From a virus: 31,796 nt of DNA. The notes below the pieces were generated by a model. That model was not told the origin of the DNA. It saw only the letters and a program-made list of their open reading frames with translations, and did no database searches. The position numbers and the translations under genes were made by a program. Below are positions 3,048 to 25,386 of the stretch, one piece after another (position 1 is the first letter of the stretch; every line of letters begins with the position of its first letter). The stretch spans positions 1 through 31,796 of IMG/VR virus record IMGVR_UViG_3300036770_006474, one strand, 5' to 3'.

Positions 3048-3782
3048 TTATCTGGGTGCGAAATCCTGTTGCAGTTTGATATTGTCCATGAACTCTTTTT
3101 TTACTGCCGGATCGGCTAGAAAAGCACCTTTGAGAACCGTGGTCTGGGTAAGGCTGCTATGGGCCATGATGCCGCGATTTTCACAGCATCCATGTTGCGC
3201 CTGGATGTATACACCGACGTCCTGGCTTTCGGTCACTTTCATGATCTCACGAGCGATGTCGTTGCAGAGTTCTTCCTGTAAGGTACCACGACGGCTGCAC
3301 CACTGTGCGATGCGTGTGTATTTGGAGAGTCCTATGAGTTTTTCTGCAGCCAGAATGCCAATATAAGCAACGCCAACAACGGGTTGGTGATGATGACTAC
3401 ACATACTGCGAATTTCACTGCGAACCACAAGCATGCCCTCATAGCGGTCCTCGCTGTCGTTAGGGAATGCTGTACAATCGGGTGCTGGATCATATCTACC
3501 CTCCATTATCTCGTTGAAGTACATCTTGGCCAAGCGTCGTGCTGTGCCTTTGCTGTTGGGGTCGGTCTCGCGATCGATTAGTAGCCGGTCCAACACCAGT
3601 TCGAACGCTTCGGTGGCTTCGTCGATCAAGACCCGTTTCATTTCCGGATACACATAGTCCGAGACATTGTCTCCGGCCCAGAATCGTTTGCCTTGGGCCC
3701 GCATGTTGGCGCGGATGGCATCACTGAGGTAGGTGCCTTTGGTGTCTTTGGGTTGGGTGTATTCGTTGAATTTTGCTACCAT
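3048..3782 (-). CDS. folE: GTP cyclohydrolase I (FolE)
   Basis: A 244-residue type I GTP cyclohydrolase, which turns GTP into dihydroneopterin triphosphate, the first step of both folate and preQ0 synthesis. Zinc ligands are visible: C128 and H131 in the block RSMCSHHHQP, and C199 in AQHGCCENRG, matching E. coli C110, H113 and C181. GLSKYTRI and TESQDVGVYIQAQH are further family blocks. The N-terminal 50 residues are typical of phage versions. The start has GGAG 8 nt upstream and its own promoter-like sequence. With the QueD fragment and the DpdA-like enzyme it argues for preQ0 made for DNA modification rather than for folate, as in other DpdA-carrying phages. The base composition is that of the GC-richer backbone, not of the ligase gene next door. 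Confidence 0.95.
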   Translation of the reverse strand: MVAKFNEYTQPKDTKGTYLSDAIRANMRAQGKRFWAGDNVSDYVYPEMKRVLIDEATEAFELVLDRLLIDRETDPNSKGTARRLAKMYFNEIMEGRYDPAPDCTAFPNDSEDRYEGMLVVRSEIRSMCSHHHQPVVGVAYIGILAAEKLIGLSKYTRIAQWCSRRGTLQEELCNDIAREIMKVTESQDVGVYIQAQHGCCENRGIMAHSSLTQTTVLKGAFLADPAVKKEFMDNIKLQQDFAPR

Positions 3783-3822
3783 TCGTTGTTCTCCGAGTTA
3801 GGGCGGTGGATTGCCAAAGTTA

Positions 3823-3851
3823 ATTGTAAATGATATCTAGATAAATTCCAA
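3823..3851 (-). promoter_or_regulatory. sigma70-like promoter for folE
   Basis: Minus-strand TTGGAA (3846-3851), 17-nt spacer, TACAAT (3823-3828). The -35 box falls in the last codons of the upstream ligase gene and the -10 box in the 54-nt gap before folE. This gap is one of the few in the window, which fits a transcription start here. Confidence 0.45.
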
Positions 3852-5309
3852 GTCTTTGTGGTCTACTATTATCTTAGATCTTATCTTTTTGGTAGTAAAC
3901 GTAGTAGGGATATCTTCTACTATTTTCATAATTTTTGGTATCATGTGTGGGTCCAGATGGTTTGATAAAAACTGCCTCAAATCTCCCACTGTCAGTCCTT
4001 TTGATGATTCGGTTAGAACTATATTTGCCACTAATATTTTTCGGTGTTGTGGTCCTATTACAATAGAAACCATGCACTCTTTGACAGAATCATGATTTAA
4101 AATCATGTTTTCAACATCAACTGGCGATACAAACAGTCCATTAATTTTATCACAGTCGTTTTTCCGACCAACATATCTGATCCTACCATGTTCTAATTTT
4201 TGAACAAGGTCGTTAGTTTTATACCATCCATCTTTGAAAGCATTTGCAGTAGCCACATAGTCATCAAAGTACCCTATGGCGCAGGTAGGACTTTTGATCA
4301 TTAGTTCCCCTATAGCACCTATACCAACTTCATTCTCGAGTTCATCTACTACTTTGATTTTGATACCTTTCCATGGTTTTCCCAGGGTTCCACTCATGTT
4401 ATCGTCGGGAGTATTTCCAATAACACATATTATTACTTCTGACATACCTATAGAATTCAAAACAGTTTTAGAATATTTTTTAAATAACCTAGCCTCTAAA
4501 TCATCCGACAGGTGTTCCCCACCGGATACCAACACTTCTACAGTGGAGAGGCCCGCTGGATCCAGTGTTGATCTCACTAAAGACGACAGCACAGTTGGTG
4601 TAGAAAAAAGATGTGTAACTTTATCGGCCTGCGTCGTTGACATAATCCTGTTGGGCGACGGAACGTGCTTGGTCAACACTATTTTATAACCAGAAAATAA
4701 TCCATATAGCACATTGAACAATCCGTATTGGAAACTGAGTTTAGCAGTGCTAAACACAACTTTGCCCGGATCGTTTCCATATGTATTCTTTAAAATGTCA
4801 ATGGATTGGCGCATTGAACTATGTCGATGCATGACAGATTTTGGCATATTGCCTGAGGTGCCAGAACTTGACAACCAAAGACTCTTGTGATCGTGATCTA
4901 CATCTACTGGGTCTGGAATGGAGGCTGATGGCGATGTGTGTTTGTCAAATGTCAAGATACCTTCTGGGACTGTGTAATCAACATCCGAGTCATAAGATAA
5001 CCAGGTAGCGCTGGTTATGTGTGCTGTATGTGTTACCCGTGCCGGCGAACAATTCCATGGTAAAAGTATTACTCTACCGCCTAGATAGATTGTAGCAAAA
5101 AAATCAATCAACCATTGAGAACTGTCTGGTCTCATGAAAATCACTCCATCATCTGATTGTAAACCCAGGGCTTGCATGATTTGTATTCTGTGCAGCACAC
5201 ACTGTTTAAGTTCTCGATAAGTCAGCATGATTTCATCATCCTTGATTGCCGTAGAATCAAAGCATTGATTGGTAATGATGCTGTCAAAAAACTCTTTTGT
5301 AAAATTCAT
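3837..5309 (-). CDS. AMP-dependent acyl/aryl-CoA synthetase-like ligase (ANL superfamily)
   Basis: A 490-residue adenylate-forming enzyme, slightly short for the family. Core motifs are intact: P-loop A3 SSSGTSGNMPK (147-157), A5 NSIGMSE (285-291), A7 GWYKTND (361-367), A8 GRKNDCDKINGLFVSP (381-396) and an A10-like lysine in TTFTTKKIR (469-477). Such enzymes activate a carboxylic acid as acyl-AMP and pass it to CoA or a carrier. The motif style recalls benzoate-CoA-ligase-like members, but the substrate cannot be read. No carrier-protein domain is attached. The start overlaps the transporter stop by 4 nt (ATGA). The gene is clearly AT-richer than folE. As the last gene of the cargo operon, it may supply an acyl donor for the acyltransferase at 6574; that is inference. 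Confidence 0.85.
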   Translation of the reverse strand: MNFTKEFFDSIITNQCFDSTAIKDDEIMLTYRELKQCVLHRIQIMQALGLQSDDGVIFMRPDSSQWLIDFFATIYLGGRVILLPWNCSPARVTHTAHITSATWLSYDSDVDYTVPEGILTFDKHTSPSASIPDPVDVDHDHKSLWLSSSGTSGNMPKSVMHRHSSMRQSIDILKNTYGNDPGKVVFSTAKLSFQYGLFNVLYGLFSGYKIVLTKHVPSPNRIMSTTQADKVTHLFSTPTVLSSLVRSTLDPAGLSTVEVLVSGGEHLSDDLEARLFKKYSKTVLNSIGMSEVIICVIGNTPDDNMSGTLGKPWKGIKIKVVDELENEVGIGAIGELMIKSPTCAIGYFDDYVATANAFKDGWYKTNDLVQKLEHGRIRYVGRKNDCDKINGLFVSPVDVENMILNHDSVKECMVSIVIGPQHRKILVANIVLTESSKGLTVGDLRQFLSNHLDPHMIPKIMKIVEDIPTTFTTKKIRSKIIVDHKDLEFI

Positions 5310-6565
5310 TTGATTACTTTCAAGGCGTATTTAGAATTTAGTGCTGCCAGTAAAGTAATTATTCCCAATCCAATCATCAACCAAGTTAACGATGATAGGT
5401 CGCCACTCGAAGTCATCCAAATGGCCAAGGGCGGTACGATTCCTCCACCAATTGCTGCGGCAATCTGGCATCCGAGACTGGCACCAGTAAATCTTATCTT
5501 GGCTGGAAAAATTTCTGTTAGATAAGCAGCCAAAGGTGCCATCATCAAGGCGTTGCCTAACACCATTCCCAGTACTATGCCTGGTAAAAAATAACCCGAA
5601 GATAACATCCAAAAGATTGGCCAAGCCATTACAACTGTCATGATAGACCCCAAAATATAAATGTTGGATCTTCCCACTCGATCACTGATACTTCCAAACA
5701 AAGGGATAGCTATCAAGTTAATGGCGCTGGCAATCAGAACAGCACCCATCGCGTCGGATCTTGAAAGGTCTAGATTCTGCACAGCATACATCACCATGAA
5801 AACACTGAGTAAATATGCCCAAGTCACCTCAGTTATTTTTAACCCAATACCAGTGATCAAGGTGCCAGGCCTTTTCAGAGTGGCAACAATTGGAAAAGCC
5901 ACTGTGCGGTGTTGTTTTTGTATGTCTAGAAATTCCGGAGTCTCTGATATTTTCTTTCTGGTGTAGTGCCCAATCAATACCAACACCAAACTCAACAAAA
6001 ATGGCAAGCGCCAACCCCATTGCATCAATTGATCATCTGGTAACAAGGTCACCAGATAAAAAATACCCGAGGCCATGAGCAAGCCAGCTGGATATCCTAC
6101 CTGTACAAAACTTGAATAAAAACCTCGATGTTTTTTGGGAACACTTTCTAAAATAACAGTGCTAGCGCCTCCCCATTCCCCACCGAATGCAATACCTTGA
6201 AGAAGCCTAAAAACTACCAATAATACCGGAGCCCAAAAACCAATTTGTGCGTATGTTGGTAACAGTCCAATGAGAAAAGTACTGATGCCCATTAACAGCA
6301 TAGTGGCCATAAGGGTGTTCTTTCTCCCGTATCGATCGCCAAAATGTCCAAATAGCACCGCACCCAATGGTCTCGCAATAAATCCCAATGAAAATGTCAT
6401 GAGAGACAACAGGATTCCACTGATGGGATCCACACCAGGAAAAAACAATTTACCAAACACCAGAGCAGCCGCAGTTCCAAATATCAAAAAATCGTACCAT
6501 TCAAACAGCGTACCAAATGCGCAGGCAAAAACCACTTTTTTTGTGGCACTGGATTCGGGTTTCAT
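5306..6565 (-). CDS. MFS transporter, metabolite:H+ symporter (MHS) type
   Basis: A 419-residue membrane protein with about 12 hydrophobic helices and no obvious truncation. FEWYDFLIFG near residue 21, the motif A loop GHFGDRYGRK between helices 2 and 3, and the second-half loop GSISDRVGRS identify the MHS family (ProP, KgtP and ShiA relatives), which import proline/betaine, 2-oxoglutarate, shikimate and similar acids with protons. The exact substrate cannot be told. AAGGA lies just before the ATG, overlapping the stop of the acyltransferase gene. Coupling by 4 nt to the ligase suggests the transported acid could be the ligase substrate; 2-oxoglutarate would instead serve the oxygenase at 7212. 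A full-length secondary transporter is very unusual in a phage. The gene is AT-rich relative to the backbone. Confidence 0.9.
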   Translation of the reverse strand: MKPESSATKKVVFACAFGTLFEWYDFLIFGTAAALVFGKLFFPGVDPISGILLSLMTFSLGFIARPLGAVLFGHFGDRYGRKNTLMATMLLMGISTFLIGLLPTYAQIGFWAPVLLVVFRLLQGIAFGGEWGGASTVILESVPKKHRGFYSSFVQVGYPAGLLMASGIFYLVTLLPDDQLMQWGWRLPFLLSLVLVLIGHYTRKKISETPEFLDIQKQHRTVAFPIVATLKRPGTLITGIGLKITEVTWAYLLSVFMVMYAVQNLDLSRSDAMGAVLIASAINLIAIPLFGSISDRVGRSNIYILGSIMTVVMAWPIFWMLSSGYFLPGIVLGMVLGNALMMAPLAAYLTEIFPAKIRFTGASLGCQIAAAIGGGIVPPLAIWMTSSGDLSSLTWLMIGLGIITLLAALNSKYALKVIK

Positions 6566-6573
6566 GCCGGTCC

Positions 6574-7215
6574 TTACATTATATTATAGGACAATGATGT
6601 TTCATCATTGATTTTTCGATTACCAAAATAGGTGCCTGATGTGTCAATGGGGCGATTTACTGCGCTATTCAACAAAAAATTTGTCCAGGGCGGAATATCT
6701 AGTTTCAGCGGTGGTTTTGGTACGAAACTGCTGCGAAGTCCCACTACAGAACCGGTACCAAGATTGGTGAAACAGAGATATGAGTATCCACAGATGTAGC
6801 AAAAATCAGAGATCGAGCTTTCATGGACCACGGTAACATAATTCACGACGTGACAATGATTGCCGATGGTCACCCCTGGCATGAACGAGTTGTTGTCTAG
6901 TATCACAGTATTGTGCCCAATGGCCACATCGTCGTCGATCAGGCTAGAATTATCAACTAGACTGACGAACGAAGAACCTTTGGCACTCAACCAATCGACC
7001 ATGGTTTTTTTAAAATTCATGGTACTTGATGTTGAAAAAAATTGGTGATCTTGGAAAAAAGAAATAGGTTGTTGTTGCACTTCTTCAAATGACAACAGGG
7101 TGACTTTTCTACTGCGTTTTACAATATCAAATGCCATGTGATTGACATAAGATTTTCCTACTATACAGATATGCCGGCCGTCGTCGTGTAGTATCTTAAA
7201 CTGTCTTGACATCAT
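6574..7215 (-). CDS. left-handed beta-helix acyltransferase (PglD/NeuD-like)
   Basis: A 213-residue protein. The N-terminal part (ICIVGKSY) resembles the nucleotide-sugar-binding domain of PglD/NeuD-type sugar acetyltransferases, and residues 90-170 contain hexapeptide repeats of the isoleucine-patch kind (SSLIDDDVAIGHNTVILD, PGVTIGNHCHV, TVVHESSISDFCYICGYS) with the candidate catalytic His in VVHESS. Such enzymes use acetyl-CoA or another acyl-CoA to acylate a sugar amine or hydroxyl. The start is ATGATG; the first ATG overlaps the oxygenase stop by 4 nt. Partners are the upstream aminotransferase, which could make the amino group, and the ligase, which could make the acyl-CoA. Acceptor and donor are not shown by the sequence. 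Confidence 0.75.
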   Translation of the reverse strand: MMSRQFKILHDDGRHICIVGKSYVNHMAFDIVKRSRKVTLLSFEEVQQQPISFFQDHQFFSTSSTMNFKKTMVDWLSAKGSSFVSLVDNSSLIDDDVAIGHNTVILDNNSFMPGVTIGNHCHVVNYVTVVHESSISDFCYICGYSYLCFTNLGTGSVVGLRSSFVPKPPLKLDIPPWTNFLLNSAVNRPIDTSGTYFGNRKINDETSLSYNIM

Positions 7216-7943
7216 GTGTTTTCTTTTCGATCATAAGGCTGTTTGGTCTTTTCATCAAACCAATAGAGACTGCGATGTGGCGGATTCAATGGTGTGGCGT
7301 TGCTAGTGAAATAAAACATGCGCAGACCGTCCCGACTGGCATCATCGGCGCAGTTGAAAGGTGTAGGATGTCCATGCACCAACCTTTCATCGTAGTTCCA
7401 TATCAGGAGACGATTAGGACGCGGTTCCACACGATGTATGCATTTGGTACGCTCGAAATCCCAAAATTCCAATGCACCTCCCCAGGACTCTTGCCAATCA
7501 CGACTGAGATAAAGTATCATACTCAAACATCGGTTGAGATGTAGTTGTTCGTTCCAATTGAAATCTGTGTGTAGTTTTAGGCTATCGCCAGCATGGCATC
7601 TCATCACTCCGGCACCTATGAGATGAGGATCTGGCACGATTTTGGAAATACCTGTCATGTCTTCGAGCCATTGTACAAATTCATGACTGTTCAAGTTCAA
7701 TACCAGTTCTCGGAGAGCTGATGAAAATTTCAAGTTGTTGCATTCTTTCATCATGCTGCCGGCTCGAGTAAACCGGGTCCATAGATGTGTAGGTATATTG
7801 TCTATCTCATCTTGTATCTGAGAGAGCAGATCTTTCGGCAGGAAATCGTCGAACGCTAACCAGGGCACTGGTTGCCCCTGACTATAATCTACGGCATAGT
7901 CTTTGGGATGATATTTGCTGGTAATTATGTCTATATCAATCAT
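7212..7943 (-). CDS. 2-oxoglutarate/Fe(II)-dependent oxygenase (prolyl-hydroxylase-like)
   Basis: A 243-residue protein with the double-stranded beta-helix iron site: H125-x-D127 in LKLHTDFNW, the distal His in RLVHGHPTPF (about 190) and a 2-oxoglutarate-binding Arg in SRDGLRMFYF (about 208). The block NRCLSMILYLSRDWQ followed by WGGALEFWD is typical of the prolyl 4-hydroxylase-like group (Tpa1/Ofd1 type). The enzyme should hydroxylate a side chain or small molecule. Phages often carry such oxygenases, but this one sits inside a coupled cluster of biosynthetic genes, overlapping the aminotransferase by 8 nt and the acyltransferase by 4 nt, so a small-molecule or sugar-linked substrate is as likely as a protein. 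Confidence 0.85.
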   Translation of the reverse strand: MIDIDIITSKYHPKDYAVDYSQGQPVPWLAFDDFLPKDLLSQIQDEIDNIPTHLWTRFTRAGSMMKECNNLKFSSALRELVLNLNSHEFVQWLEDMTGISKIVPDPHLIGAGVMRCHAGDSLKLHTDFNWNEQLHLNRCLSMILYLSRDWQESWGGALEFWDFERTKCIHRVEPRPNRLLIWNYDERLVHGHPTPFNCADDASRDGLRMFYFTSNATPLNPPHRSLYWFDEKTKQPYDRKENT

Positions 7944-8835
7944 TTTCGATCAGTCTATCAGCGATGCACAAACGATTGCTGGAGGTGCCACGGTTATATT
8001 GTTTCCATGATCCTGCACGATCTATTCCTAAGAACACTGTGGGACTTGCTTCAACTTCTAATTGTTCACACACAGATCGTTGCCTGTCTGCAAATTTTCG
8101 AAAACACTGGTCCGGAGATATTTTTTCCATAATAGATAGACCTAACCCTAGACCCATGCGGTTCAAGTAACCTGTTTTGTGATGGATCAAGAGACTGTCA
8201 TCATCGTCCGTTTTGGTGAATCTTATACCTATCCTGGCGTGGGCCACAGGCACAGTCTTGCTCAGGCTGAAAACAATATCGGTTATGCACTCACGATCAA
8301 AATCAAAACACAGTCCGGCGCATGCACCGAAAAAAGCACAATCTATCAGCACAGGAACTCCAAGACGATCACATTGATCCAGTGTTGAGTCCATATCTGG
8401 GTGCTGGTCTCCTGTATCGCTGAATGGGTAACTGATTATGACTGCATCTTGAGCGTCTATATCAGCATCATCTATCCAGCGCCAATTGGGGAAATAGTTC
8501 TTCCAGCTGGCAGCATGATACATGTATTCGCCTCTGAAACATCGAAATCGTCTGCGATGATTTTTGAGATAAAATTTGTCAAAAGATTCCGAGGTGCCGT
8601 TGCTGGCTGCACTGATTGGGTAGCAAGACAGCCCTTGGATTTCATTGAGCTCTGTATGGGAAATCCACTCACGATACTTGTCCACAAACTTTAGATGGAT
8701 GTCTTCTTCTGTGAGCCAACGATAGACCGAGCCTTGTTGCATCAGATCTTGGATAAGCGTAATCAACGCCGGATCGGGCACCGCCTTGGCTCCGCCAAAT
8801 TCTAAATGTTTAAGGCTCGGTAAATGATGTGTCAT
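7936..8835 (-). CDS. PLP-dependent (fold type I) aminotransferase-like enzyme
   Basis: A 299-residue protein, short for fold type I enzymes. ASNGTSESFDKFYL (77-90) resembles the phosphate-binding region, D165 in PVLIDCAFFG is the expected pyridine-nitrogen Asp, and K193 in VFSLSKTVPVAHARIGIRF is the likely Schiff-base lysine, followed by the arginine normally placed there. The small-domain C-terminus is much reduced, so this may be a minimal variant or a repurposed PLP enzyme. The substrate is unknown; with GalE upstream and a PglD-like acyltransferase downstream, an amino-sugar route is one option, an amino-acid-derived product another. It overlaps the glycosyltransferase-like gene by 4 nt and the oxygenase by 8 nt. 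Confidence 0.7.
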   Translation of the reverse strand: MTHHLPSLKHLEFGGAKAVPDPALITLIQDLMQQGSVYRWLTEEDIHLKFVDKYREWISHTELNEIQGLSCYPISAASNGTSESFDKFYLKNHRRRFRCFRGEYMYHAASWKNYFPNWRWIDDADIDAQDAVIISYPFSDTGDQHPDMDSTLDQCDRLGVPVLIDCAFFGACAGLCFDFDRECITDIVFSLSKTVPVAHARIGIRFTKTDDDDSLLIHHKTGYLNRMGLGLGLSIMEKISPDQCFRKFADRQRSVCEQLEVEASPTVFLGIDRAGSWKQYNRGTSSNRLCIADRLIEND

Positions 8836-9818
8836 AGAGAAATTATGTTTTTGATAGATTCAAGGCACTGATCAACGGGTTTATGATCTCGAAACTTGAT
8901 CCAATTGTCCCACCTGCGGTGTCTGGTTGCCACGAGCATATCATGTAAATCCAAGTCAACTATACGATCCAATTCGGCATGCATTTTATTTAATCTTGTT
9001 CTCGCATCCGTCTCAAAATCGTAGGAGTGATCAATGATATCATCAAAAACATCAAATCCCAATCGACGTAATTCAGATAGGATGCCTTGATTACCCAAGA
9101 CCAGAAACAATTGTCCAGAAAGGATAGGCTTCCAAGTTTTCTCTGTAATAAAAATCCTGCGTTTCACTGTGCTTTCATTTACTAGGTTCAGACATGTGTC
9201 AGTCCAGGCAGGATGTGTAGCTCTCAACTCAAAGGCAAAACCATTTGCCGGATCTTGGTCCTGGACACTGCGACAGATTGTTTGCCAATCTGCATTTTCT
9301 TCTTGGGTGAGTTCGAATCCATCGTCATATGCACTGCATTTTATCTGGTCGTGCCATAGGTTAACTATACTTTCATGTCGATAAGGTTTTTCTTGCATGA
9401 TCAGATAATTGGCGATTCGGAACGGCCTAGGTTGTCCGCCCAAACTGCTGACCAAAAAAGTTTTTTTCCTCGACATGTCTGGACAGGGTGGTAAATCCTG
9501 AGACCTTTGCCAGAACCAGAAAGGAAAATACACAATGTTGTTTTCCAGCGATTCGTAACCTGGATCATGGGTCAAGATCACGAAGTTTTCCACACAGCAT
9601 TTGCGAAAGATATCGACCAGACGCCTGGTCAACGGGTAACTATCATCGTTACCCCAATGTTCGGTGGCACAGTTGGCTATCACTGCTCGATAATGCGCTA
9701 AACGCCGGCAACGATCAAGGTCCGGGACTATCCAACCTTTGTCATTGGTAACAAAAAAGTCCTGGTAAGGTTGGTGAGATTCGAAGATGTCCTGTGCATT
9801 TTTGTCAAATAGGCGCAT
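8832..9818 (-). CDS. predicted glycosyltransferase-like protein, TEKT-motif family, copy A
   Basis: A 328-residue protein from the ATG at 9818 (MRLFDKNAQD), which lies 14 nt inside the end of galE. A longer open frame reaches 9884, but that part is galE read in another frame. The C-terminal third has LVNESTVKRRIFITEKTWKP, then a hydrophobic stretch, SELRRLGFDVFDDIIDHSYD and an acidic helix. The same arrangement occurs in two other proteins here (21777-22757 and 23067-24035). The N-E-S...I-T-E-K pattern recalls the donor-sugar motif of GT10-like and exostosin-like glycosyltransferases, hence the tentative call; the fold is not proven. Its place between GalE and the aminotransferase fits sugar transfer. 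No clear Shine-Dalgarno site is present, so it is probably coupled to galE. Confidence 0.55.
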   Translation of the reverse strand: MRLFDKNAQDIFESHQPYQDFFVTNDKGWIVPDLDRCRRLAHYRAVIANCATEHWGNDDSYPLTRRLVDIFRKCCVENFVILTHDPGYESLENNIVYFPFWFWQRSQDLPPCPDMSRKKTFLVSSLGGQPRPFRIANYLIMQEKPYRHESIVNLWHDQIKCSAYDDGFELTQEENADWQTICRSVQDQDPANGFAFELRATHPAWTDTCLNLVNESTVKRRIFITEKTWKPILSGQLFLVLGNQGILSELRRLGFDVFDDIIDHSYDFETDARTRLNKMHAELDRIVDLDLHDMLVATRHRRWDNWIKFRDHKPVDQCLESIKNIISL

Positions 9819-10776
9819 TTTTTTTATACCATGCCCAGGCATGCTGGATGATTTCGTGTGTGTTATAGCGTGGTACCCAACCACTTACGAGATTGAATTT
9901 TTGGCTCGTGGCGGTGAGCACAGCAGGGTCACCAGGTCGCCTTGTACCTAACACGTATTTTAGATCGCCGTCGGTAACAGATTCCGCTGCGGTCATGATC
10001 TCACGGTTAGATGCGCCCACCGAAGTACCAAGATTGTACACCCCCGTCGGCACCACTGCATACACGGCCATGTGGTGTGCATGTGCTATATCTTCCACAT
10101 GCACGTAATCTCTCACACAGGTACCATCTACTGTGGCATAGTCTGAACCGTAGAGCGTGAACTCACGATCGTCTCGCAGACTTTCTAGCACTCGGGCGAT
10201 GATGTGTGTGGCTCCAGGTTCCTGGCCGTGGCGACCTTCGCTGTCTGCACCACAGGCGTTGAAGTAACGGAATGCCACATAGTCCAGGCCATAAGCCCTG
10301 TGATAAGCAGCCAGCATCATCTCCGTCATGATCTTGCTTTCACCGTAGGGACTCACCGGCAGGGGTGGGTCAGATTCTTGGCAGGGCGTGATCACAGGTT
10401 CGCCATACACAGCAGCGGAACTGGAAAACACGATCCTGGTGTTGGGAGCATATCGGATCACGTAATCTGCCAGATTCTTGGTCTTGACAAAGTTGTTTCT
10501 ATAATAGGATTCAGGATCGGCGATGGATGGTCCTACCAGGCTGGTACCAGCACAATGTATCACAGCTACGGGACGGTGTTCCAGGATACGGCTCAAGCCA
10601 TGTTCCGAAGCAAAATCTTCCTGATAAAAACGATCTGGAATCGGTTTAAGATGCTGAGGTAAAGGTCGGATATCTATGCCAATCACCCGTATGCCTTGAT
10701 CTCTCAAGGCCAGCATGGTCTGACCGCCGATGTAACCGGCAGCACCTGTGACTATCACGGTGATAGGTGTGCTCAT
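9805..10776 (-). CDS. galE: UDP-glucose 4-epimerase family (GalE)
   Basis: A 323-residue extended short-chain dehydrogenase. The NAD loop GAAGYIGG (11-18), the SSSAAVYG block, the catalytic Y-x3-K in SPYGESK, RYFNACGAD, and the GalE-specific TCVRDYVHVEDIAHAH are all present and in order. The family interconverts UDP-glucose and UDP-galactose or their N-acetyl forms; this copy is close to classic GalE in length and motifs. Its start overlaps the GT4-like gene stop by 4 nt (ATGA), and the next gene starts inside its end. It probably supplies a UDP-hexose to the adjacent glycosyltransferases. Other sugar-nucleotide dehydratases or epimerases are possible but less likely given the VRDYVHV block. 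Confidence 0.93.
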   Translation of the reverse strand: MSTPITVIVTGAAGYIGGQTMLALRDQGIRVIGIDIRPLPQHLKPIPDRFYQEDFASEHGLSRILEHRPVAVIHCAGTSLVGPSIADPESYYRNNFVKTKNLADYVIRYAPNTRIVFSSSAAVYGEPVITPCQESDPPLPVSPYGESKIMTEMMLAAYHRAYGLDYVAFRYFNACGADSEGRHGQEPGATHIIARVLESLRDDREFTLYGSDYATVDGTCVRDYVHVEDIAHAHHMAVYAVVPTGVYNLGTSVGASNREIMTAAESVTDGDLKYVLGTRRPGDPAVLTATSQKFNLVSGWVPRYNTHEIIQHAWAWYKKNAPI

Positions 10777-11957
10777 TGATACTTGGCAGCGGCTACATGA
10801 TCACGATAACGATTGCCCCCGCGATTCCACTGCTCTCCTTCGCCCGTGATGATGTCCACCACACGGTCTACTGTGCCATCGTTCCAGTCAGAGATACTGC
10901 CCATTCTAGGATGCGGATCCGATAACAACCGTTCTAGTTTGGCCACTGCGTCATCCATGCTCCAAGGAACATAGAGCCGATCAGGATCATTGGCAAAAGT
11001 TTCAGGAAAACTACGATAAGCAGGATACAGAACATTACAACCGAGAGTGTCGGCTTCGGATACGGTGTTGCTGACCCAGTCTTGCAAGGCACAATTAAAT
11101 AGTACGCGAGTATCATTGAGCAGATCGTAGTAAGCATTCTTGGCCAATCCATCATAGATTTTCAACTTGCCGTCTGCCGCCATGCTCCGGGCACGCTCCA
11201 CATACTCTGGATTGTTGCTACGCAATGCACCCCCTTGGAAGATAGCGAACTCCACGTCGGGATTGGCTGTCTGCACCCGTTCGGCCAGATCCATGAAGAA
11301 CCCGGGTTGTTTTTCCTGATCGAAACGAGCAGCGAAGGCCACACGCATCTTTCGATCCGCAAATGACCGGATCTTGTCCGCTCCACCAATGCGCTCCAGC
11401 ACTTCCGACTTGCCAAATGCCAGACCGGAGATGTTGTAAATGGGAGCAGTCCAACCTGCGATACGCATGTGTGCTACCATCTCTTCGTTGGTGGCCAACA
11501 CTGCTACATACGGAATCTGGTTTACCATCCGCTCGTAAGTCGACATCCAGCCTGCCATGCCCCACACATGCACGAAATCGTCAGGGTCGATGGCCTGTGC
11601 CAGACAACGGACGAAGATACGAGGACGCTGATTCTCAGGCACTTGATCAAGGATGTAAGGCAGGCTTTCGATGCCAGGTTGGAACATGTCTTCGAAGTAG
11701 ATCACATCTTCATTGGTAACCTCCCCGTTGCGCATCATCTGCACCAGATTCATCATCTGGCTCATGGAGAAGTAGGAGCGACCGTGTGCATCCAAGACTT
11801 GACCCACAGAGATTGACTGTGTGTTGTCGATAGTGTCGCCGGACACATACACCACATCTAGACCACGGTGATCAAACACACGTCGATTCCATTCTGTGAG
11901 TTGTAGGGTGTAACGAGCCTCATAACTTTCGAGGCCCATGTAGAATAGTTTACGCAT
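10773..11957 (-). CDS. GT-B fold glycosyltransferase (GT4-like)
   Basis: A 394-residue protein. The C-terminal half has the hallmarks of group 1 glycosyltransferases: VAFAARFDQEKQPGFFMDLA, then PDVEFAIFQGG, LKIYDGLAKNAYYDLLNDTR, and FNCALQDWVSNTVSEADTLG, where the Glu of SEAD corresponds to the usual E-x7-E region. The N-terminal domain begins MRKLFYMGLE and has alternating strands and helices. It should transfer a sugar from a nucleotide sugar, plausibly one made by GalE just downstream. The start forms TGATG with the stop of the preceding small gene. The target could be host surface glycan, a phage protein or modified DNA; nothing in the sequence chooses between them. Confidence 0.8.
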   Translation of the reverse strand: MRKLFYMGLESYEARYTLQLTEWNRRVFDHRGLDVVYVSGDTIDNTQSISVGQVLDAHGRSYFSMSQMMNLVQMMRNGEVTNEDVIYFEDMFQPGIESLPYILDQVPENQRPRIFVRCLAQAIDPDDFVHVWGMAGWMSTYERMVNQIPYVAVLATNEEMVAHMRIAGWTAPIYNISGLAFGKSEVLERIGGADKIRSFADRKMRVAFAARFDQEKQPGFFMDLAERVQTANPDVEFAIFQGGALRSNNPEYVERARSMAADGKLKIYDGLAKNAYYDLLNDTRVLFNCALQDWVSNTVSEADTLGCNVLYPAYRSFPETFANDPDRLYVPWSMDDAVAKLERLLSDPHPRMGSISDWNDGTVDRVVDIITGEGEQWNRGGNRYRDHVAAAKYQ

Positions 11958-12243: not shown

Positions 12244-12996
12244 TCATTCAAACTTGTGCCATTGCTGTGCCGGCACAAGCCTTTTTTGTGCTACCACTAT
12301 CCAAAAATGTTTTTTACCTATTTCGACAAATTCTTTCCAGGCCGAATCGATTTTGACTATTTTAAGATGTGGTTCTATGGCTGACACGATGTCGACCATC
12401 GATCTTGTAATCAATCCGTCACAAACAGCAGCCACGTCTTCTCCGGAACCCAAACAGCTGATCCATATGCCGTTGATGGCAAGGAGATCATTGATTTTTT
12501 CCGCAAATCGTGCTCGATCTGACGCACGATTAAACAGATGAAAACAACCATCATCCACTATGAGATCAAATCGTTGGTTGCCGGTATCTAATTCTAACAC
12601 ATCTGCGGTTTTGTAAACTATCTTATCGACCAGATCAGGCATGTTTTTTTTGGCTAAATCAAGAGCGGTTGGTGAAATATCTACGGCCCAGGGTTTGAGA
12701 CCCTGTTGTGCGGCTTTAATGGCGTAAATTGGAAAATCTCCACAACCTAGTTCCATTACTGTTTTTTCATGATTTGAGGCGATATCTGAGATATAGCAAT
12801 CCACCAGAGCAAAAGATTGGTGGCGATTGGACCATGGCATATCCTGCGGATCTATACGAGAGTACCGAGCCTCCCAGACCAGATCCATAGAACCTTTGGG
12901 AAACTGCTGGTTTATTTCATCAACTAATGCATTATACTTCTGTAGTTTTGGATGCATGTCAAATGGTATAAGAAAGATTGGGACGGTGGGTTTCAT
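12244..12996 (-). CDS. class I SAM-dependent methyltransferase
   Basis: A 250-residue protein with motif I VMELGCGDFP (80-89), an acidic motif II AVDISPTALDLAKK, then IVYKTADVLEL and RFDLIVDDGCFHLF, a normal Rossmann methyltransferase order. The fold resembles thiopurine-methyltransferase-like and similar small-molecule methylases; the substrate is unknown. Two starts are possible: the ATG at 12996, 38 nt inside the preceding gene, or the ATG at 12957, two nt after that gene's stop (TGACATG). Neither has a strong ribosome site, and the second matches local spacing better. The gene looks more AT-rich than the genes before it. It would yield S-adenosylhomocysteine, the substrate of the hydrolase at 24035. 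Confidence 0.85.
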   Translation of the reverse strand: MKPTVPIFLIPFDMHPKLQKYNALVDEINQQFPKGSMDLVWEARYSRIDPQDMPWSNRHQSFALVDCYISDIASNHEKTVMELGCGDFPIYAIKAAQQGLKPWAVDISPTALDLAKKNMPDLVDKIVYKTADVLELDTGNQRFDLIVDDGCFHLFNRASDRARFAEKINDLLAINGIWISCLGSGEDVAAVCDGLITRSMVDIVSAIEPHLKIVKIDSAWKEFVEIGKKHFWIVVAQKRLVPAQQWHKFE

Positions 12997-13408
12997 ATCG
13001 GATCAGGCAACCATTCTCGCCATCTTCGGAGACCTCTATCCATACCGCCCGGCCTGGATAACGATCTGCTATCTGTATATATAGGTCATCCGCCATCATC
13101 TCACAACTTTTGAAGTCAAGGCTCAGAACTGCGTCTTGATTATTATACAGCGAGAGACACCAGCGTTTGAACTGGATGAACTCGATGTCCCGATCATTGT
13201 GGAACACATCGATCCACACCCGGAAATGGAAGATATGGCGATGAGGATAACCAAGGAACGAAACATCATATTCATCTCCAGTGGCCAGACCAGGATCTGT
13301 CAGTGCCGCCGGATACTTATGCACACCCTCGCGCTGGAAGGTGACCCAGATCTTTCTATCCGCTCGTTGCATGATGCGTTCTGCTGTTTGTCTTTCCGCT
13401 TGATTCAT
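12959..13408 (-). CDS. conserved phage-type hypothetical protein
   Basis: A 149-residue soluble protein. The middle block RVWIDVFHNDRDIEFIQFKR and the following CLSLY look strongly constrained and are of a kind seen in T4-like phages of aquatic bacteria; I know no function. There is no signal peptide or helix pair. The start overlaps the previous gene by 4 nt (ATGA). It belongs to a run of three unknowns between the YdcH-like gene and the methyltransferase. Confidence 0.7.
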   Translation of the reverse strand: MNQAERQTAERIMQRADRKIWVTFQREGVHKYPAALTDPGLATGDEYDVSFLGYPHRHIFHFRVWIDVFHNDRDIEFIQFKRWCLSLYNNQDAVLSLDFKSCEMMADDLYIQIADRYPGRAVWIEVSEDGENGCLIRYETHRPNLSYTI

Positions 13409-14291: not shown

Positions 14292-14490
14292 CATCTATCT
14301 CCACTGATTCATGATCATGTTCCCATTGCTTCCGGCGCAAGTCTGCGATCTGGTCTTTGAGATCCAGTTTCTGTTTCTTGAGATCATGGATCTGTGTGTC
14401 CGTAAATCGGCCAGTGCTTTCCAGTCCGGCGATGCGTTTGTCCAGTGCTGCGTGCATCTCTTCCAGATGACGGATGCGGTTTTCGTACAT
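14284..14490 (-). CDS. YdcH/DUF465-like small coiled-coil protein
   Basis: A 68-residue helical hairpin. IRHLEEMHAALDKRIAGLE and LKKQKLDLKDQIADLRRK reproduce the YdcH/DUF465 pattern (L-x2-x-H-x2-L-D-x2-I ... L-K-x2-K-L-x-L-K-D-x-I). These small proteins are common in proteobacteria and some marine phages; the function is unknown. Its ATG overlaps the dpdA stop (TAATG), so it is translated with that gene. Confidence 0.85.
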   Translation of the reverse strand: MYENRIRHLEEMHAALDKRIAGLESTGRFTDTQIHDLKKQKLDLKDQIADLRRKQWEHDHESVEIDDE

Positions 14491-16013
14491 TATACGCTGT
14501 CCTCTAGTTGGTCCAGTTGTGCCTGATCGAACTCCTCCGCGGGTTCGATCTCCTCGTCTACATCAAAAAGCGTGTTGAATTGGCTGTGCGCATTCACGGC
14601 TCGTTTTCCGGTGAATCCACGCGTGCCCACTACCCTTTCCCACACTTTAGCATGATCGTCGATGATGGCCAAGGATTTAGAGCGATCACGTGCGGCAAAC
14701 ACTCGATCAATGATCCTGCGGACGTCGAAGTCAGAATTGGTAGGATGTACCATCATATCCGGACATATGCCACGATCGTACTCGCGATTGGCGCGTTGCA
14801 CCGATTCGATGTGTGTCCACACATTGTGTCCCATCATGAGGGCATAACTGAACGAGTCCCAGGAGGTGGCGCCCTCCTTGCCGATCTTGTTCTTGTCGCC
14901 GGGTCGGTACACACATACATCTCGGATCCGGAGCCTGGCCGAGATCGGAGAATCTTCGAAGGCCGAATGGATGCCATCCTGTGTCACAGCATCACGGAAC
15001 GATCGATTGTCCGTGGCGTATTTCTTGTCATCCGCGGTAGGACTCATTTGGTATGACCATTTTGATCTGTTTGGGGTCAGGATGGAATGATAGATCTGGC
15101 CATTGGCCGTGGCCAGGAACGGCGAAGCGCAGTCAAATGAGATAGTGAATCGGGGATTGGCGTACTGGCGCACTGCCCGCTGGATGTCGGTGAGCAGCAC
15201 AGCCCACTCCAGTTTTGATGTGCCCAGGAAGTGCATCCAGTCATGCACACCCGGTTCTAACAGTCCATCGTGGATGAGGTGCACCAGGCGTTTCAGCACC
15301 AGGTGCACATCACACATGTTCTGTCCACCCATGCCCCAACCATTGAAATGTCGATCAGGATATTTCCGCGGATCACAGTAGTGCTTCATGAGATCATACC
15401 AGTGATCGGCCTCGGCGTGGTTGCCGCCTTGCAACACATTGAGTATCCGGGTGTCGCCGTAGCGGTTGGCGATCCAGAATTCGTTGTTGTATTGTGTGGC
15501 TCGCACAGCATCATCATAGGAGAAGATGCCGCAGGCAGCCGCAGCCACAGGATCTCGGAAGGTCCAGGTTGGTATGTCCATGGTCATGCCGTAAGTGGCG
15601 ATGCCCATCTGCCATTTCAGCACCTTCTCTCGTTGTGCCTCTGCTTTCCGATCGGTAAAGTCAGCCCAGCGACCGGGCCACACACCCTTGGCGATCTGGA
15701 ATCCGCCAGAGTCTGCCAGCATGATGGTCGTGGCGTCTCTGTTTCTGACCATATCTTCTTTGGGATCTGGCTTGGCGAGATCGAGATTGGCATGGCCTGC
15801 ACTGTACAGGCTCCAGCGATAAGGGAACAACGCCTTCTGAGGATTCAACCAGTTCATTGACTCCATGTCCGGAATGCCCGGTGGCATGCGCGTGGCTTCT
15901 ACATAGGCACTGGATCTTTGCCGGCCGATGTATGATGCATAGAAACTGCTGATGGCCGGCAAGAATATGGCATAATCCTGTTGGGCAGCGGTAAGGTCGT
16001 GATCTACTGGCAT
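14490..16013 (-). CDS. dpdA: DpdA-like tRNA-guanine-transglycosylase homologue (7-deazaguanine insertion into DNA)
   Basis: A 507-residue member of the TGT superfamily, from the ATG at 16013 (a TTG at 16022 is less likely). Catalytic landmarks are in order: DSGGFQ (101-106), D146 in MTMDIPTW, VLQGG (193-197), GWGMGG (225-230) and the nucleophile D294 in ISFDCASP, matching bacterial TGT D102, D156, Q203, G229-G230 and D280. The C-x-C-x2-C-x(n)-H zinc site of tRNA-modifying TGTs is absent. Divergence from bacterial Tgt, the phage setting and folE plus queD in the same window point to DpdA, which exchanges guanine in DNA for preQ0 or a derivative. It overlaps the sulfotransferase by 10 nt and the YdcH-like gene by 1 nt. 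Which 7-deazaguanine is inserted cannot be told. A tRNA or archaeosine-type target is the alternative. Confidence 0.82.
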   Translation of the reverse strand: MPVDHDLTAAQQDYAIFLPAISSFYASYIGRQRSSAYVEATRMPPGIPDMESMNWLNPQKALFPYRWSLYSAGHANLDLAKPDPKEDMVRNRDATTIMLADSGGFQIAKGVWPGRWADFTDRKAEAQREKVLKWQMGIATYGMTMDIPTWTFRDPVAAAACGIFSYDDAVRATQYNNEFWIANRYGDTRILNVLQGGNHAEADHWYDLMKHYCDPRKYPDRHFNGWGMGGQNMCDVHLVLKRLVHLIHDGLLEPGVHDWMHFLGTSKLEWAVLLTDIQRAVRQYANPRFTISFDCASPFLATANGQIYHSILTPNRSKWSYQMSPTADDKKYATDNRSFRDAVTQDGIHSAFEDSPISARLRIRDVCVYRPGDKNKIGKEGATSWDSFSYALMMGHNVWTHIESVQRANREYDRGICPDMMVHPTNSDFDVRRIIDRVFAARDRSKSLAIIDDHAKVWERVVGTRGFTGKRAVNAHSQFNTLFDVDEEIEPAEEFDQAQLDQLEDSV

Positions 16014-16681
16014 TTGACACAATCTATCAGTTCGTAATCATGACGATAGGCCTCGGTAATTGCGGCCCTGAGTTCCGGGACTGCCTGGATGCGTTGTCGA
16101 AGGAATTGCTGTATCACCCTGGCATCTTCGTTGCGATCCCCTTGGTTGCGATCGAGATCTGCAGCAGGTGCTGTCAAACCCAGGTAGTCAGCAAAGACCA
16201 CGTCGAATCCGTCGTCAAGCATGAAATATCGTCGTGGAATCTCTGGCAATAGATCTTTTAAAAACCATGTCTGTGGCCACACATGATCATCAAAGGTTTC
16301 GAGATTGTCAAAGATCAATCTTTCTGTGAGCCAGTCATACTGTTCAACGAATTCTTTGCCGGTCCTGCGTTGGAAATGTTCACTGGGTCCGTGCTTGGTG
16401 TAAAAAAATCTAGACCCATTCAACACCCAACCACACGCATACTGAGCGAAGCCACTCAACCATCTCTGCACAGGATCTCGCAGCACCACGATCACTTTCT
16501 GTAGTGTGTCATGATGGTGAGTGTCAGTCAAGGTATGCACATGCCACCCACCAGATCGGTGGGTCCAATCCAGGATGAAACTGCTGGCGTTTTTGGGGAT
16601 ATCCACGATGAATCGTTGATGCGATCGATCGACGAGACCAGATCCAAATTGATATCCTCTGCGATCGCTGTTGGGAATCAC
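16004..16681 (-). CDS. PAPS-dependent sulfotransferase-family protein
   Basis: A 225-residue protein with both PAPS-binding blocks of the sulfotransferase family: a 5'-phosphosulfate loop FIVDIPKNASSF (24-35) and a 3'-phosphate block VVLRDPVQRWLSGF (65-78). The rest is divergent. It would move sulfate to a hydroxyl or amine of a carbohydrate, small molecule or base. It starts with GTG in a GTGA overlap with the clamp gene stop; no better start exists. The overlap with dpdA means the two are co-translated. No PAPS synthesis gene is visible, so it would rely on the host supply. The acceptor is unknown. Confidence 0.78.
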   Translation of the reverse strand: MIPNSDRRGYQFGSGLVDRSHQRFIVDIPKNASSFILDWTHRSGGWHVHTLTDTHHHDTLQKVIVVLRDPVQRWLSGFAQYACGWVLNGSRFFYTKHGPSEHFQRRTGKEFVEQYDWLTERLIFDNLETFDDHVWPQTWFLKDLLPEIPRRYFMLDDGFDVVFADYLGLTAPAADLDRNQGDRNEDARVIQQFLRQRIQAVPELRAAITEAYRHDYELIDCVKCQ

Positions 16682-21049: not shown

Positions 21050-21780
21050 CGTATATAACTTAGTTCAACTAACTTAGGTATCAAAATATCGTCTACCCAA
21101 ATAGAGTGCGCCGAAGTCTTGGGATGATTTTTATCAAACCATTCTGTATTTCTGTCTGAACAAAATCCATAAAATCCTTGATGTTTACTGTTGCTGACAA
21201 ATTTCTCTTGATCGATTTGGTCGAAAATTTCAGGCACGATGTCGACGGCTCCCACATGGTAATGTAGTGGCATGACCAGAGGGAAAGACGAGGCCATGAC
21301 ATATTTTATTTTGCGAGTTTGTAAGTATAACTGAGAACTAATAATATTGCAATACCAATCATGAGTGGCCTTATGCGCACTGTAAAAAAATTTAAACCAT
21401 TTGTGTTTAAATCCACGAGGAACACTACCATTACAGTTGAATCCTGCATCAACCCGATAGATTCCATGATAATCAATAAATTTAGGTTGGACGCCATCTG
21501 GCCAAGATGCAGTGTTTATATCATTGACAAGATGTGGCACACTAGCATCTGTCCATAAATCAAATCTATCTGCACTGGGCCACATTATAACCACCAAAGA
21601 ATCATCTGGGCAAATGTCGGTGCTAGTAAACAATCTTTTCAATAAAAAATCTGAACCGGCCCCGCGCTCGGCACGATTTTCGAGTAGTGCCTGTAATCGA
21701 TCAGATAACAGATCGGCCCATGTTTTCTGATAATTGTCTTTGGTAAAACTACAGCCAAAAGTATAAATCTTTTTGATCAT
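21046..21780 (-). CDS. SGNH/GDSL-hydrolase-like phage protein
   Basis: A 244-residue protein starting MIKKIYTFGCSFTKDN; GCS with Ser11 matches SGNH block I, and the C-terminal NHPKTSAHSIWVDDILIPKL matches block V, where an acidic residue and His complete the site. The stretch DDSLVVIMWPSADRFDLW is a strand and loop of the same fold. Such phage proteins are common next to glycan genes and may act as esterases or deacetylases; activity is not proven. It overlaps the polymerase and the preceding glycosyltransferase-like gene by 4 nt each. The gene looks more AT-rich than the polymerase. Confidence 0.65.
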   Translation of the reverse strand: MIKKIYTFGCSFTKDNYQKTWADLLSDRLQALLENRAERGAGSDFLLKRLFTSTDICPDDSLVVIMWPSADRFDLWTDASVPHLVNDINTASWPDGVQPKFIDYHGIYRVDAGFNCNGSVPRGFKHKWFKFFYSAHKATHDWYCNIISSQLYLQTRKIKYVMASSFPLVMPLHYHVGAVDIVPEIFDQIDQEKFVSNSKHQGFYGFCSDRNTEWFDKNHPKTSAHSIWVDDILIPKLVELSYIR

Positions 21781-22757
21781 TTCAGCAGAGCCTGTTCGAA
21801 CGCACTATCTATGACGGACAAAATGTCCTCTTGCCAGTTCTGCTTCCATTTCGCTAGAATTTTCTTATTGTGTTGACACCCTTGCCACAGTCGATCGTTC
21901 AACGACGGAGTCATCTCAAGGTCAACCAAGGACTTGGCCTGCTCGATTATTTTATCAATTACCGGAGAGGCATTTTCAGATGTATCGATTTCGTTGTAGG
22001 AATGATCGATCACATCGTCGAATACTTCAAACCCCATGTCTCTGAGTTTTTGTACACATCCAGTCGCTGCAAACAACATCCAAGGTCTCGGAGTCTGTAA
22101 TGCTCTAAATGTCTTTTCGCTTAAAACTTTTGCATCAGTTCTTTCGAAGTAAGTTTCGACTATGATGCCGAATTTAGATTGTGCCGACAATGTGAACAGA
22201 TCGATTTGCGGATCAAAACTTTTATATGGTACGATTTTATCTAACTGTGGTTTAATAGAGTGAAATGATGACAAATACAATTCGTGATATCGATCAAATA
22301 TATCTTTGGAAGAGGTCTCAGGATAATCCAATTTCTGCCTTACTTCCATGTTAAACGATACATGCCCACGTTGGAGCAATGTGTTAGAATAAAGAAGATA
22401 AAACCACGTTTGCCTAATAGGGTCTATCCTATTAAGGAAACAGTTGAAATCTTTTGTTATCGCAGTGTCTACTTGGTGTTCGCTGTGGTACATTCCATAT
22501 AAACTGGACGGCAGTTGGAAAACTGTGACATTATCAGCAACATTTTCGATCGTGTGTTCTGAAATCACATAAAACTTTTTATCGGTCCTAGAAAAATCTT
22601 CAATCTCCTGACGCGAGAATGCATCTATCAAGTATGACTGCAGGTGAACAGGCTTGCGTCGTTTACGAAGAATCCGATTTTTTTCACCGACCAAAGAATG
22701 GATCCAGTCCTGGGCACCGCGCCACTGACGGTTCCACGCTACATCAATGGGGGACAC
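21777..22757 (-). CDS. predicted glycosyltransferase-like protein, TEKT-motif family, copy B
   Basis: A 326-residue protein if it starts at the GTG at 22757, one nt after the stop of the small upstream gene. A longer frame to 22826 exists but is that gene read in another frame. The C-terminal third (FGIIVETYFERTDAKVLSEK, then KLRDMGFEVFDDVIDHSYNE) aligns with copies A and C; S-E-K-T replaces T-E-K-T. The N-terminal part (NCFLNRIDPIRQTWFYLLYS) has the look of the nucleotide-sugar-family proteins found in phages and large viruses. Transferase activity is a guess. The gene is AT-rich compared with the polymerase. The start is uncertain because no ribosome site is clear. Confidence 0.55.
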   Translation of the reverse strand: MSPIDVAWNRQWRGAQDWIHSLVGEKNRILRKRRKPVHLQSYLIDAFSRQEIEDFSRTDKKFYVISEHTIENVADNVTVFQLPSSLYGMYHSEHQVDTAITKDFNCFLNRIDPIRQTWFYLLYSNTLLQRGHVSFNMEVRQKLDYPETSSKDIFDRYHELYLSSFHSIKPQLDKIVPYKSFDPQIDLFTLSAQSKFGIIVETYFERTDAKVLSEKTFRALQTPRPWMLFAATGCVQKLRDMGFEVFDDVIDHSYNEIDTSENASPVIDKIIEQAKSLVDLEMTPSLNDRLWQGCQHNKKILAKWKQNWQEDILSVIDSAFEQALLK

Positions 22758-22758
22758 G

Positions 22759-23019
22759 TCAGAGAGTTTTACCAACAGTGGTAAGGATTGTTTCCAACAA
22801 AGCATGGTCCTGCTGTTCCTTGCCAAATTCGGCCTTGTGCGCCAGGCGGATGGCTTTTTTTAGGATGTTGGGTTTGATCTCAATCTCTTCAGCCACGGCC
22901 TTGATGGTATCGCTCAGGCCACCGTTAAGCGTTTCGATCTCGTGCATGACCTGCATACCCTCGTTCACCATCTGCGTGAGTTTGGCCTTTTGTTCTGCTG
23001 AAAAATTGCGTGTGTCCAT
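22759..23019 (-). CDS. DsbA-like small dsDNA-binding/transcription-associated protein (T4-type)
   Basis: An 86-residue helical protein: MDTRNFSAEQKAKLTQMVNE, then a block with TLNGGLSDTIKAVAEEIEIK and NILKKAIRLAHKAEFGKEQ. Size and helical pattern resemble T4 DsbA and its relatives in aquatic T4-like phages, which bind double-stranded DNA and are tied to late transcription; the relation is judged by eye only. GGGAG lies 7 nt before the ATG, and the best promoter in the window lies directly upstream, so it should be strongly expressed. It heads the replication operon. Confidence 0.55.
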   Translation of the reverse strand: MDTRNFSAEQKAKLTQMVNEGMQVMHEIETLNGGLSDTIKAVAEEIEIKPNILKKAIRLAHKAEFGKEQQDHALLETILTTVGKTL

Positions 23020-23041: not shown

Positions 23042-23070
23042 ACTATAACAGGGTTTTTGATCAAAGTCAA
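23042..23070 (-). promoter_or_regulatory. strong sigma70-like promoter for the replication operon
   Basis: Minus-strand TTGACT (23065-23070), exactly 17 nt, then TATAGT (23042-23047), five of six matches in each box with ideal spacing. The start would be near 23035, giving a short leader to the ATG at 23019. The spacer contains the perfect palindrome TTTGATCAAA, which could be an operator. The -35 box overlaps the stop of the preceding gene. Confidence 0.65.
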
Positions 23071-25345: not shown

Positions 25346-25363
25346 AGATGTATGTATGATGCA

Positions 25364-25386
25364 CAAATATCTTTTTGAAATATTTG
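25364..25386. repeat. inverted repeat between divergent genes
   Basis: CAAATAT (25364-25370) and ATATTTG (25380-25386) form a perfect 7-nt inverted repeat with a 9-nt spacer, in the 64-nt gap between the SAH hydrolase and the divergent endonuclease gene. It could be an operator for either gene or simply AT-rich flanking DNA carried with the endonuclease. No T-run follows the right arm, so a classic terminator is unlikely. Confidence 0.35.

Follow-up and report, generated by a model that had tools for sequence, protein, structure and literature searches.

A variable slot in a conserved phage gene region, which runs from a TGT/DpdA-like gene through a glycosyltransferase (GT) and GalE to FolE beyond the slot, carries a six-gene insert of recurrent modules in the virus record IMGVR_UViG_3300036770_006474. 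The window, meaning the whole stretch of DNA that was analyzed, is the entire record of 31,796 bp; it has no completeness estimate and is most likely a fragment, the rest of the genome being unseen. Its DNA polymerase is closest to those of huge phages (Sinorhizobium Phosso, 50%; Agrobacterium Atu_ph07, 46%), and no near-identical DNA was found among known phages. The features on which the analysis rests are as follows.

3048-3782, minus strand: GTP cyclohydrolase I (FolE), which bounds the variable slot on its far side
3783-9804, no strand: hypervariable cargo slot from GalE to FolE, recognized by length and composition
3837-5309, minus strand: acyl/aryl-activating ANL enzyme, 490 aa, closest to benzoate-CoA ligases (AMP-binding, 5e-48)
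5306-6565, minus strand: MFS transporter of the metabolite:H+ symporter type, closest to the shikimate transporter (MFS_1, 4.1e-33)
6574-7215, minus strand: NeuD/PglD-like acyltransferase with a left-handed beta-helix (His131 conserved throughout nine homologues)
7212-7943, minus strand: Fe(II)/2-oxoglutarate (2OG) oxygenase, prolyl-hydroxylase type (HTD...H...R motif intact)
7936-8835, minus strand: miniature fold-type I pyridoxal phosphate (PLP) enzyme, class I/II aminotransferase type (K193, D165, R201 and R288 invariant in 20 homologues)
8832-9818, minus strand: GT-B-fold glycosyltransferase-like protein, TEKTWKP family, by predicted structure (a longer GTG start at 9884 is possible)
9805-10776, minus strand: GalE-type UDP-hexose 4-epimerase, part of the lineage backbone (TIGR01179)
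10773-11957, minus strand: GT-4-like glycosyltransferase, also part of the backbone (identity in relatives has a median of 80%)
12959-13408, minus strand: conserved protein of 149 aa, with homologues next to the TGT/DpdA-like and GT genes in phages of Pseudomonas (54%) and Synechococcus (37%)
14490-16022, minus strand: TGT/DpdA-like protein (DSGGFQ, QGG and FDCASP motifs; both catalytic Asp positions invariant)

A variable slot between GalE and FolE

A first-pass annotation had treated eight genes at 3837-11957 as one cargo unit, joined by short overlaps and a single gap. The eight open reading frames (ORFs) are all intact on the minus strand and are spaced as it described: the overlaps measure 4 nt at GT/GalE, GT-like/PLP, 2OG/NeuD-like and MFS/ANL, 8 nt at PLP/2OG, and 14 nt at GalE/GT-like if the GT-like gene starts at the ATG at 9818, and the sole gap, of 8 nt, separates the NeuD-like and MFS genes. 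However, nearly all genes in the window are as tightly packed, and tight packing alone is therefore insufficient to define a unit. Base composition splits the eight. GalE, GT and FolE are at the backbone G+C level of 0.51-0.52, with G+C at third codon positions (GC3) of 0.51-0.56 in GT and GalE, and the six genes between GalE and FolE have a G+C content of 0.39-0.45 and GC3 of 0.36-0.44. The break falls exactly at the slot borders.

With the TGT-like protein at 14490-16022 we retrieved 80 related viral loci (58-90% identity) and mapped the window proteins onto them; individual loci are cited by L numbers. The recurrent order is polymerase, clamp-position protein, TGT/DpdA-like protein, 149-aa protein, GT, GalE, a variable interval, FolE, a surface-type protein and HIT. 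Where loci were long enough, GT was found downstream of the TGT/DpdA-like gene in 44/45 and GalE in 39/45, and the median identity of GT (80%) is on par with that of DNA polymerase (81%) and FolE (82%). The conserved order across loci and the G+C split place GT and GalE in the conserved backbone of a huge-phage lineage, linked to the TGT/DpdA-like gene and FolE. Only the other six genes are cargo, so that the proposal of a single eight-gene cargo unit does not hold. A host chromosomal origin for the segment was rejected because the backbone genes flanking it on both sides are common to dozens of viral contigs.

The interval between GalE and FolE ranges from 76 to 4345 bp across 50 relatives, a set that includes a few duplicate contigs, and reaches 6.0 kb in the window. 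The smallest occupied slots among those read hold a single miniature DegT-type aminotransferase (mini-DegT) of about 193 aa, with PLP motifs and without the C-terminal domain; it was seen at L018 (15110-15691) and about 30 other loci. Among 41 loci with both GalE and FolE, mini-DegT occurs in 27 and a class I/II mini-aminotransferase in 8, a few carrying both; no mini-DegT copy was found in the window. Other slots add an amidinotransferase-like protein, in the company of mini-DegT, an Asp/Arg-hydroxylase-like oxygenase (both read from sequence, with no Pfam match) or a radical SAM protein (PF04055). Slots of the window's type combine a 299-aa class I/II mini-aminotransferase with a 2OG oxygenase, often together with the NeuD-like acyltransferase.

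These combinations recur. The lineage loci that have the 2OG enzyme also have the PLP enzyme (11/11), and a scan with the NeuD profile alone returned seven loci, all with PLP and 2OG genes adjoining. ANL is present in seven deduplicated lineage loci, six of which have a NeuD-like gene; the seventh contig begins inside ANL. The association between ANL and NeuD has an odds ratio of 55 (p = 4e-5), statistics that ignore the shared ancestry of the loci, and L167, which is additional to the lineage count, also has ANL with NeuD. The ANL kinds differ in size (490/488 aa, 361-363 aa and 321 aa) and in their membrane or uptake partner, which is MFS in the window and L092, DUF2061 in L167, and a TctC-like binding protein in L070 (Pfam, 1.1e-9) and, by similarity, in L078, L079 and L183. 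They also occur at two genomic sites, the slot and upstream of the polymerase, and on both strands. This variety of kinds, partners, sites and strands argues for repeated independent assembly. The six slot genes fall into two or more separable modules, PLP-2OG(-NeuD) and uptake-ANL-NeuD, exchanged in the variable slot. At the second of the two sites, upstream of the polymerase, NeuD-like, ANL and TctC-like periplasmic binding protein genes were observed in L070 (983-5209), L079 (1775-4326) and L078 (3-1376).

The full gene order recurs on L092, a 352-kb viral contig, where GalE-PLP-2OG-NeuD-MFS-ANL is repeated with a divergent FolE in between; identities to the window are 57% for PLP, 69% for 2OG, 40% for NeuD, 37% for MFS and 27% for ANL. 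A close variant, GalE-GT-like-PLP-2OG-NeuD-DUF2061-ANL, is present on L167, a 6.3-kb contig binned as Bacteroidetes that has phage-type genes. The concern that these genes might never be found together elsewhere, raised with the initial proposal, is thereby answered.

Enzymes encoded in the slot

The gene identities first proposed were borne out by profile for GalE, 2OG, Hexapep, MFS_1 and AMP-binding and, for the aminotransferase, through its homologues and an AlphaFold model. The ANL protein falls within its superfamily (AMP-binding, 164.2 bits versus a cut-off of 29.9), with the P-loop (SSGTSGNMPK), GR..D and C-terminal lysine (TTKKIR) motifs present, and lies below the benzoate-CoA ligase cut-off of TIGR02262 (213.4 versus 375.25). 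Single-protein ANL pattern scans of viral and genome contigs returned nothing, and a profile scan gave the L092 contig only. Since the listed tblastn matches among "phage" records were weak (about 22-25% identical) and mostly unannotated or bacterial-looking contigs, no donor is named. The transporter, for which we infer a role in uptake, passes the MFS_1 cut-off and lies just under that of TIGR00883 (406.5 versus 443.45); its phage relatives are 50-59% identical in L008-L011 and 37% in L092. Because the acyltransferase exceeded the Pfam cut-off for Hexapep (6.1e-7) while missing that of TIGR03570 (NeuD/PglB/VioB; 64.1 versus 160.8 bits), it appears to be like NeuD and was not filed as NeuD.

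The PLP protein alone gave no family match, and a PDB search by single sequence also returned nothing. However, PDB matches were obtained once an alignment was used as the query, and 13 of the 20 homologues matched Aminotran_1_2. Its AlphaFold model (pLDDT 92.5) matches class I/II PLP enzymes along its full length, with Z 21-22 over about 280-293 residues, and the Schiff-base lysine K193, the pyridine Asp D165 and the substrate-binding Arg R288 are invariant. The modeled fold and the conserved residues indicate a fold-type I enzyme of the class I/II aminotransferase type. The fold comparison pointed to no particular substrate, with a large number of class I/II enzymes level at Z 21-22, and readings as an arginine oxidase or a decarboxylase were therefore dropped. 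Bacterial homologues of the PLP enzyme occur in SAR11, SAR116, Prochlorococcus and others (L168-L177), where they form a pair with an Asp/Arg-hydroxylase-like 2OG gene, mostly in polysaccharide loci.

The 2OG oxygenase matches 2OG-FeII_Oxy_3 (3.6e-16). Some of its relatives lie directly after what reads as a gp23-like major capsid gene (L116, 5964-6656; L138, 3618-4331) and might hydroxylate a virion protein. Another arrangement was seen in L120 (5870-11000) and, in similar form, in L124-L155, where carbamoyltransferase, 2OG, Asp/Arg hydroxylase-like, PLP, amidinotransferase, radical SAM and GT-B-like genes follow cysteine-rich tail-fiber-like repeats in a cluster resembling a guanidino compound pathway.

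The protein at 8832-9818 had no match in phage records or Pfam. Its AlphaFold model (pLDDT 82.4) gave fucosyltransferase 13 and exostosin as top Foldseek matches and Z 12.2 to Gtf3 and alpha-1,3-fucosyltransferase, which predicts a GT-B fold. Two GT-B-like paralogues (21777-22826 and 23067-24038) lie in a second low-G+C patch of the window, beside a GDSL-like ORF, and phage cargo regions contain many members of this family, 64 of them in 46 of the loci that have the 2OG gene.

The TGT/DpdA-like gene and other backbone genes

In the TGT/DpdA-like protein, D104 and D297 are invariant in 12 homologues, and the DSGGFQ and FD..xP catalytic motifs are present. The 149-aa protein may resemble a T-fold (QueD-like) protein, judging from its motifs, and FolE in general catalyzes the first step of preQ0 synthesis. 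GalE exceeds the TIGR01179 cut-off (290.7 bits versus 262.3) and scores 112.0 versus 365.1 for dTDP-glucose 4,6-dehydratase, in a window that is most likely a fragment.

The same genes keep company in isolate phages. In Synechococcus phage BUCT-ZZ01 a GT homologue (65%) adjoins a TGT/DpdA-like gene, identified by motif and a weak hhalign match; QueE, QueD and FolE are annotated, and the 149-aa protein is present. Pseudomonas Wroclawvirus has the GT (23%), the TGT-like protein (36%), an annotated QueE, a GalE-like 170-aa protein and the 149-aa protein, and the GT/TGT-like pair also occurs in the cultured Pseudomonas aeruginosa phages Paride and PA5oct. GT homologues beside TGT/DpdA-like and Que genes in these phages point to DNA containing glycosylated 7-deazaguanine.

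Around this region, a sulfotransferase-like gene (16004-16681; PF03567, 23.7 bits, cut-off 22) lies between the TGT-like and clamp-position genes and is present in only some relatives. An FG-GAP repeat protein with a lipoprotein-like start (598-2982) occupies a place where relatives have divergent or unrelated surface-type proteins, subtilase-like in L092. Elsewhere, the window has an intact adenosylhomocysteinase (24035-25366; TIGR00936, 603.9 bits versus a cut-off of 497.6), unusual in a phage, and a long plus-strand ORF (25410-26036) in a gap between minus-strand genes that may resemble a homing endonuclease.

Proposed pathway and target

The insert is phage-borne and fits sugar, amine and acyl chemistry, as had been proposed. 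We tentatively favor a pathway in which an imported acid is activated and used to acylate an amine, tailoring a sugar on glycosylated 7-deazaguanine in the phage's own DNA. The MFS protein would import a carboxylic acid, a step that the TctC-like periplasmic binding protein may perform in relatives, and the ANL enzyme would activate it as an acyl-AMP or acyl-CoA. The miniature aminotransferase would aminate a keto-sugar or similar precursor, the NeuD-like enzyme would acylate the resulting amine, and the 2OG oxygenase would hydroxylate the product or the acyl chain. The GT-B enzymes and GalE would supply and attach the sugar. Phage DNA appears the likeliest end target because GT and GalE lie together with the TGT/DpdA-like gene and FolE in one conserved region, and conservation of GT to the level of the polymerase suits an unchanging acceptor. 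We rate phage DNA slightly above the host surface as the target. A broader version is conceivable and on balance doubtful. In it, the conserved TGT/DpdA-like, GT and GalE proteins would glycosylate 7-deazaguanine in phage DNA, and the slot would be a library of exchangeable modules that diversify the DNA sugar and so outpace host restriction: aminotransferase, amidinotransferase, oxygenase and radical SAM modules, besides an acyl module that brings its own acid importer and ligase.

Several observations weigh against DNA tailoring. The TGT/DpdA-like protein has no match to any Pfam, PADLOC or PDB profile, and its hhalign match to E. coli Tgt is weak (probability 17.5%, E 0.0014); none was obtained to 9g DpdA, nor any in PADLOC, where 9g DpdA itself scores only E 0.02. 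The assignment is thus a provisional one, drawn from motifs and context without a significant profile match. No nucleotide-sugar 4,6-dehydratase was recognized in the window, which is most likely a fragment, leaving no evident source of a 4-keto sugar to aminate, and we infer the substrate of every insert enzyme, the product and the target. L098 has PLP-2OG without GT and GalE, the PLP and 2OG families occur in other phages near tail-fiber-like genes without evident DNA-modification genes, PLP homologues are located in bacterial surface-polysaccharide loci, and shared ancestry tempers the ANL-NeuD statistics.

Some of these points bear on a second reading that we consider possible, if well short of even odds, namely that the product of the insert is an amino sugar, N-acylated or tailored in some other way, which phage GTs add to host lipopolysaccharide (LPS) or capsule, blocking receptors for competing phages. 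NeuD/PglD enzymes act on sugars of surface glycans, and the NeuD-like protein has its TIGR03570 match, below the cut-off. PLP homologues (25-49%) adjoin Asp/Arg-hydroxylase-like 2OG genes in polysaccharide loci of SAR11, SAR116 and Prochlorococcus, and hypervariable glycan genes of pelagimyophages have been interpreted as modifying the O-chain (PMC7029224). However, the slot lies between GalE and FolE, away from tail-fiber genes; the partner GT is conserved like the polymerase, unexpected for an enzyme fitted to varying host surfaces; and the window yielded neither a flippase nor a lipid-carrier GT.

Alternatively, ANL and MFS could be auxiliary metabolic genes for scavenging carbon, supplying host catabolism with an organic acid and unconnected with the sugar genes. 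The closeness of ANL to benzoate-CoA ligases and of the transporter to shikimate/metabolite symporters would suit such a role, as would the MFS relatives in phages L008-L011 that lack the other insert genes. We consider it improbable, as a NeuD-like gene is present in 6/7 of the lineage ANL loci, the seventh contig starting inside ANL, and no catabolic genes accompany the pair. That the insert is independent cargo gathered at a permissive site with no common pathway is very unlikely: slot content is highly variable and several families are found elsewhere in different company, but the order is kept at 27-76% identity in L092 and L167, and the 2OG-PLP and ANL-NeuD associations are strong (11/11; p = 4e-5). 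It is equally unlikely that the enzymes make a small molecule, free or secreted, that resembles an aminoglycoside or derives from an amino acid. Marine phage loci ordered carbamoyltransferase-2OG-Asp/Arg hydroxylase-PLP-amidinotransferase-radical SAM hint at such a product, as do the amidinotransferase-like and mini-DegT proteins in relatives' slots, but the transporter types indicate uptake rather than export and glycosyltransferases are nearly always nearby.

Bacterial N-acyl amino-sugar pathways, such as the anthrose ant operon, the Pseudomonas viosamine vio genes and NeuD/PglD, group aminotransferase, beta-helix or other acyltransferase, glycosyltransferase and acyl-supply genes, and the insert resembles them in this. 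In contrast to them, it is phage-borne in a swap-in slot, has a miniature PLP enzyme and what would be its own acid importer and acyl ligase, and shows no 4,6-dehydratase in the window. The region resembles phage 7-deazaguanine DNA modification (DpdA, FolE, QueD, QueE; PMC6884629) in its TGT-like protein with both catalytic aspartates and its FolE, and QueD/QueE accompany the homologous set in isolate phages; unlike those systems, it has a conserved glycosyltransferase and GalE built into the set, and the text of Hutinet 2019 (PMC6884629) contains no word starting "glycos". T4-like marine phages (pelagimyophages; PMC7029224) likewise have hypervariable glycan/LPS regions, whose variable cargo includes glycosyltransferases and radical SAM proteins. 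However, those regions sit with tail fibers, whereas the window's slot lies between GalE and FolE in a replication/DNA-modification (polymerase/TGT) region and has a transporter, an acyl ligase and an acyltransferase. Thymidine hypermodification and the carboxymethylcytosine-glycine amide (PMC12783734) share the multi-enzyme tailoring of a phage base, although they build on pyrimidine C5, whereas here a 7-deazapurine base with sugar tailoring would be involved.

Phage glycan cargo (PMC7029224) and phage 7-deazaguanine DNA (PMC6884629) are thus already known kinds; what is new is the slot of exchangeable modules, the acyl-supply line, and a GT conserved with a TGT/DpdA-like gene in three phage groups. 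In the literature searched, coverage of which was incomplete, we found no description of these three, no report of glycosylated 7-deazaguanine in phage DNA and, in agreement with the first-pass annotation, no prior account of the gene combination.

If the proposed tailoring of glycosylated 7-deazaguanine is correct, phages would carry a full acyl-donor supply line (import, activation and transfer) for sugar decoration, and 7-deazaguanine DNA modification would have a glycosylation branch, overlooked since its genes are mostly labeled hypothetical. The slot shows phage exchange of tailoring chemistry as cassettes.

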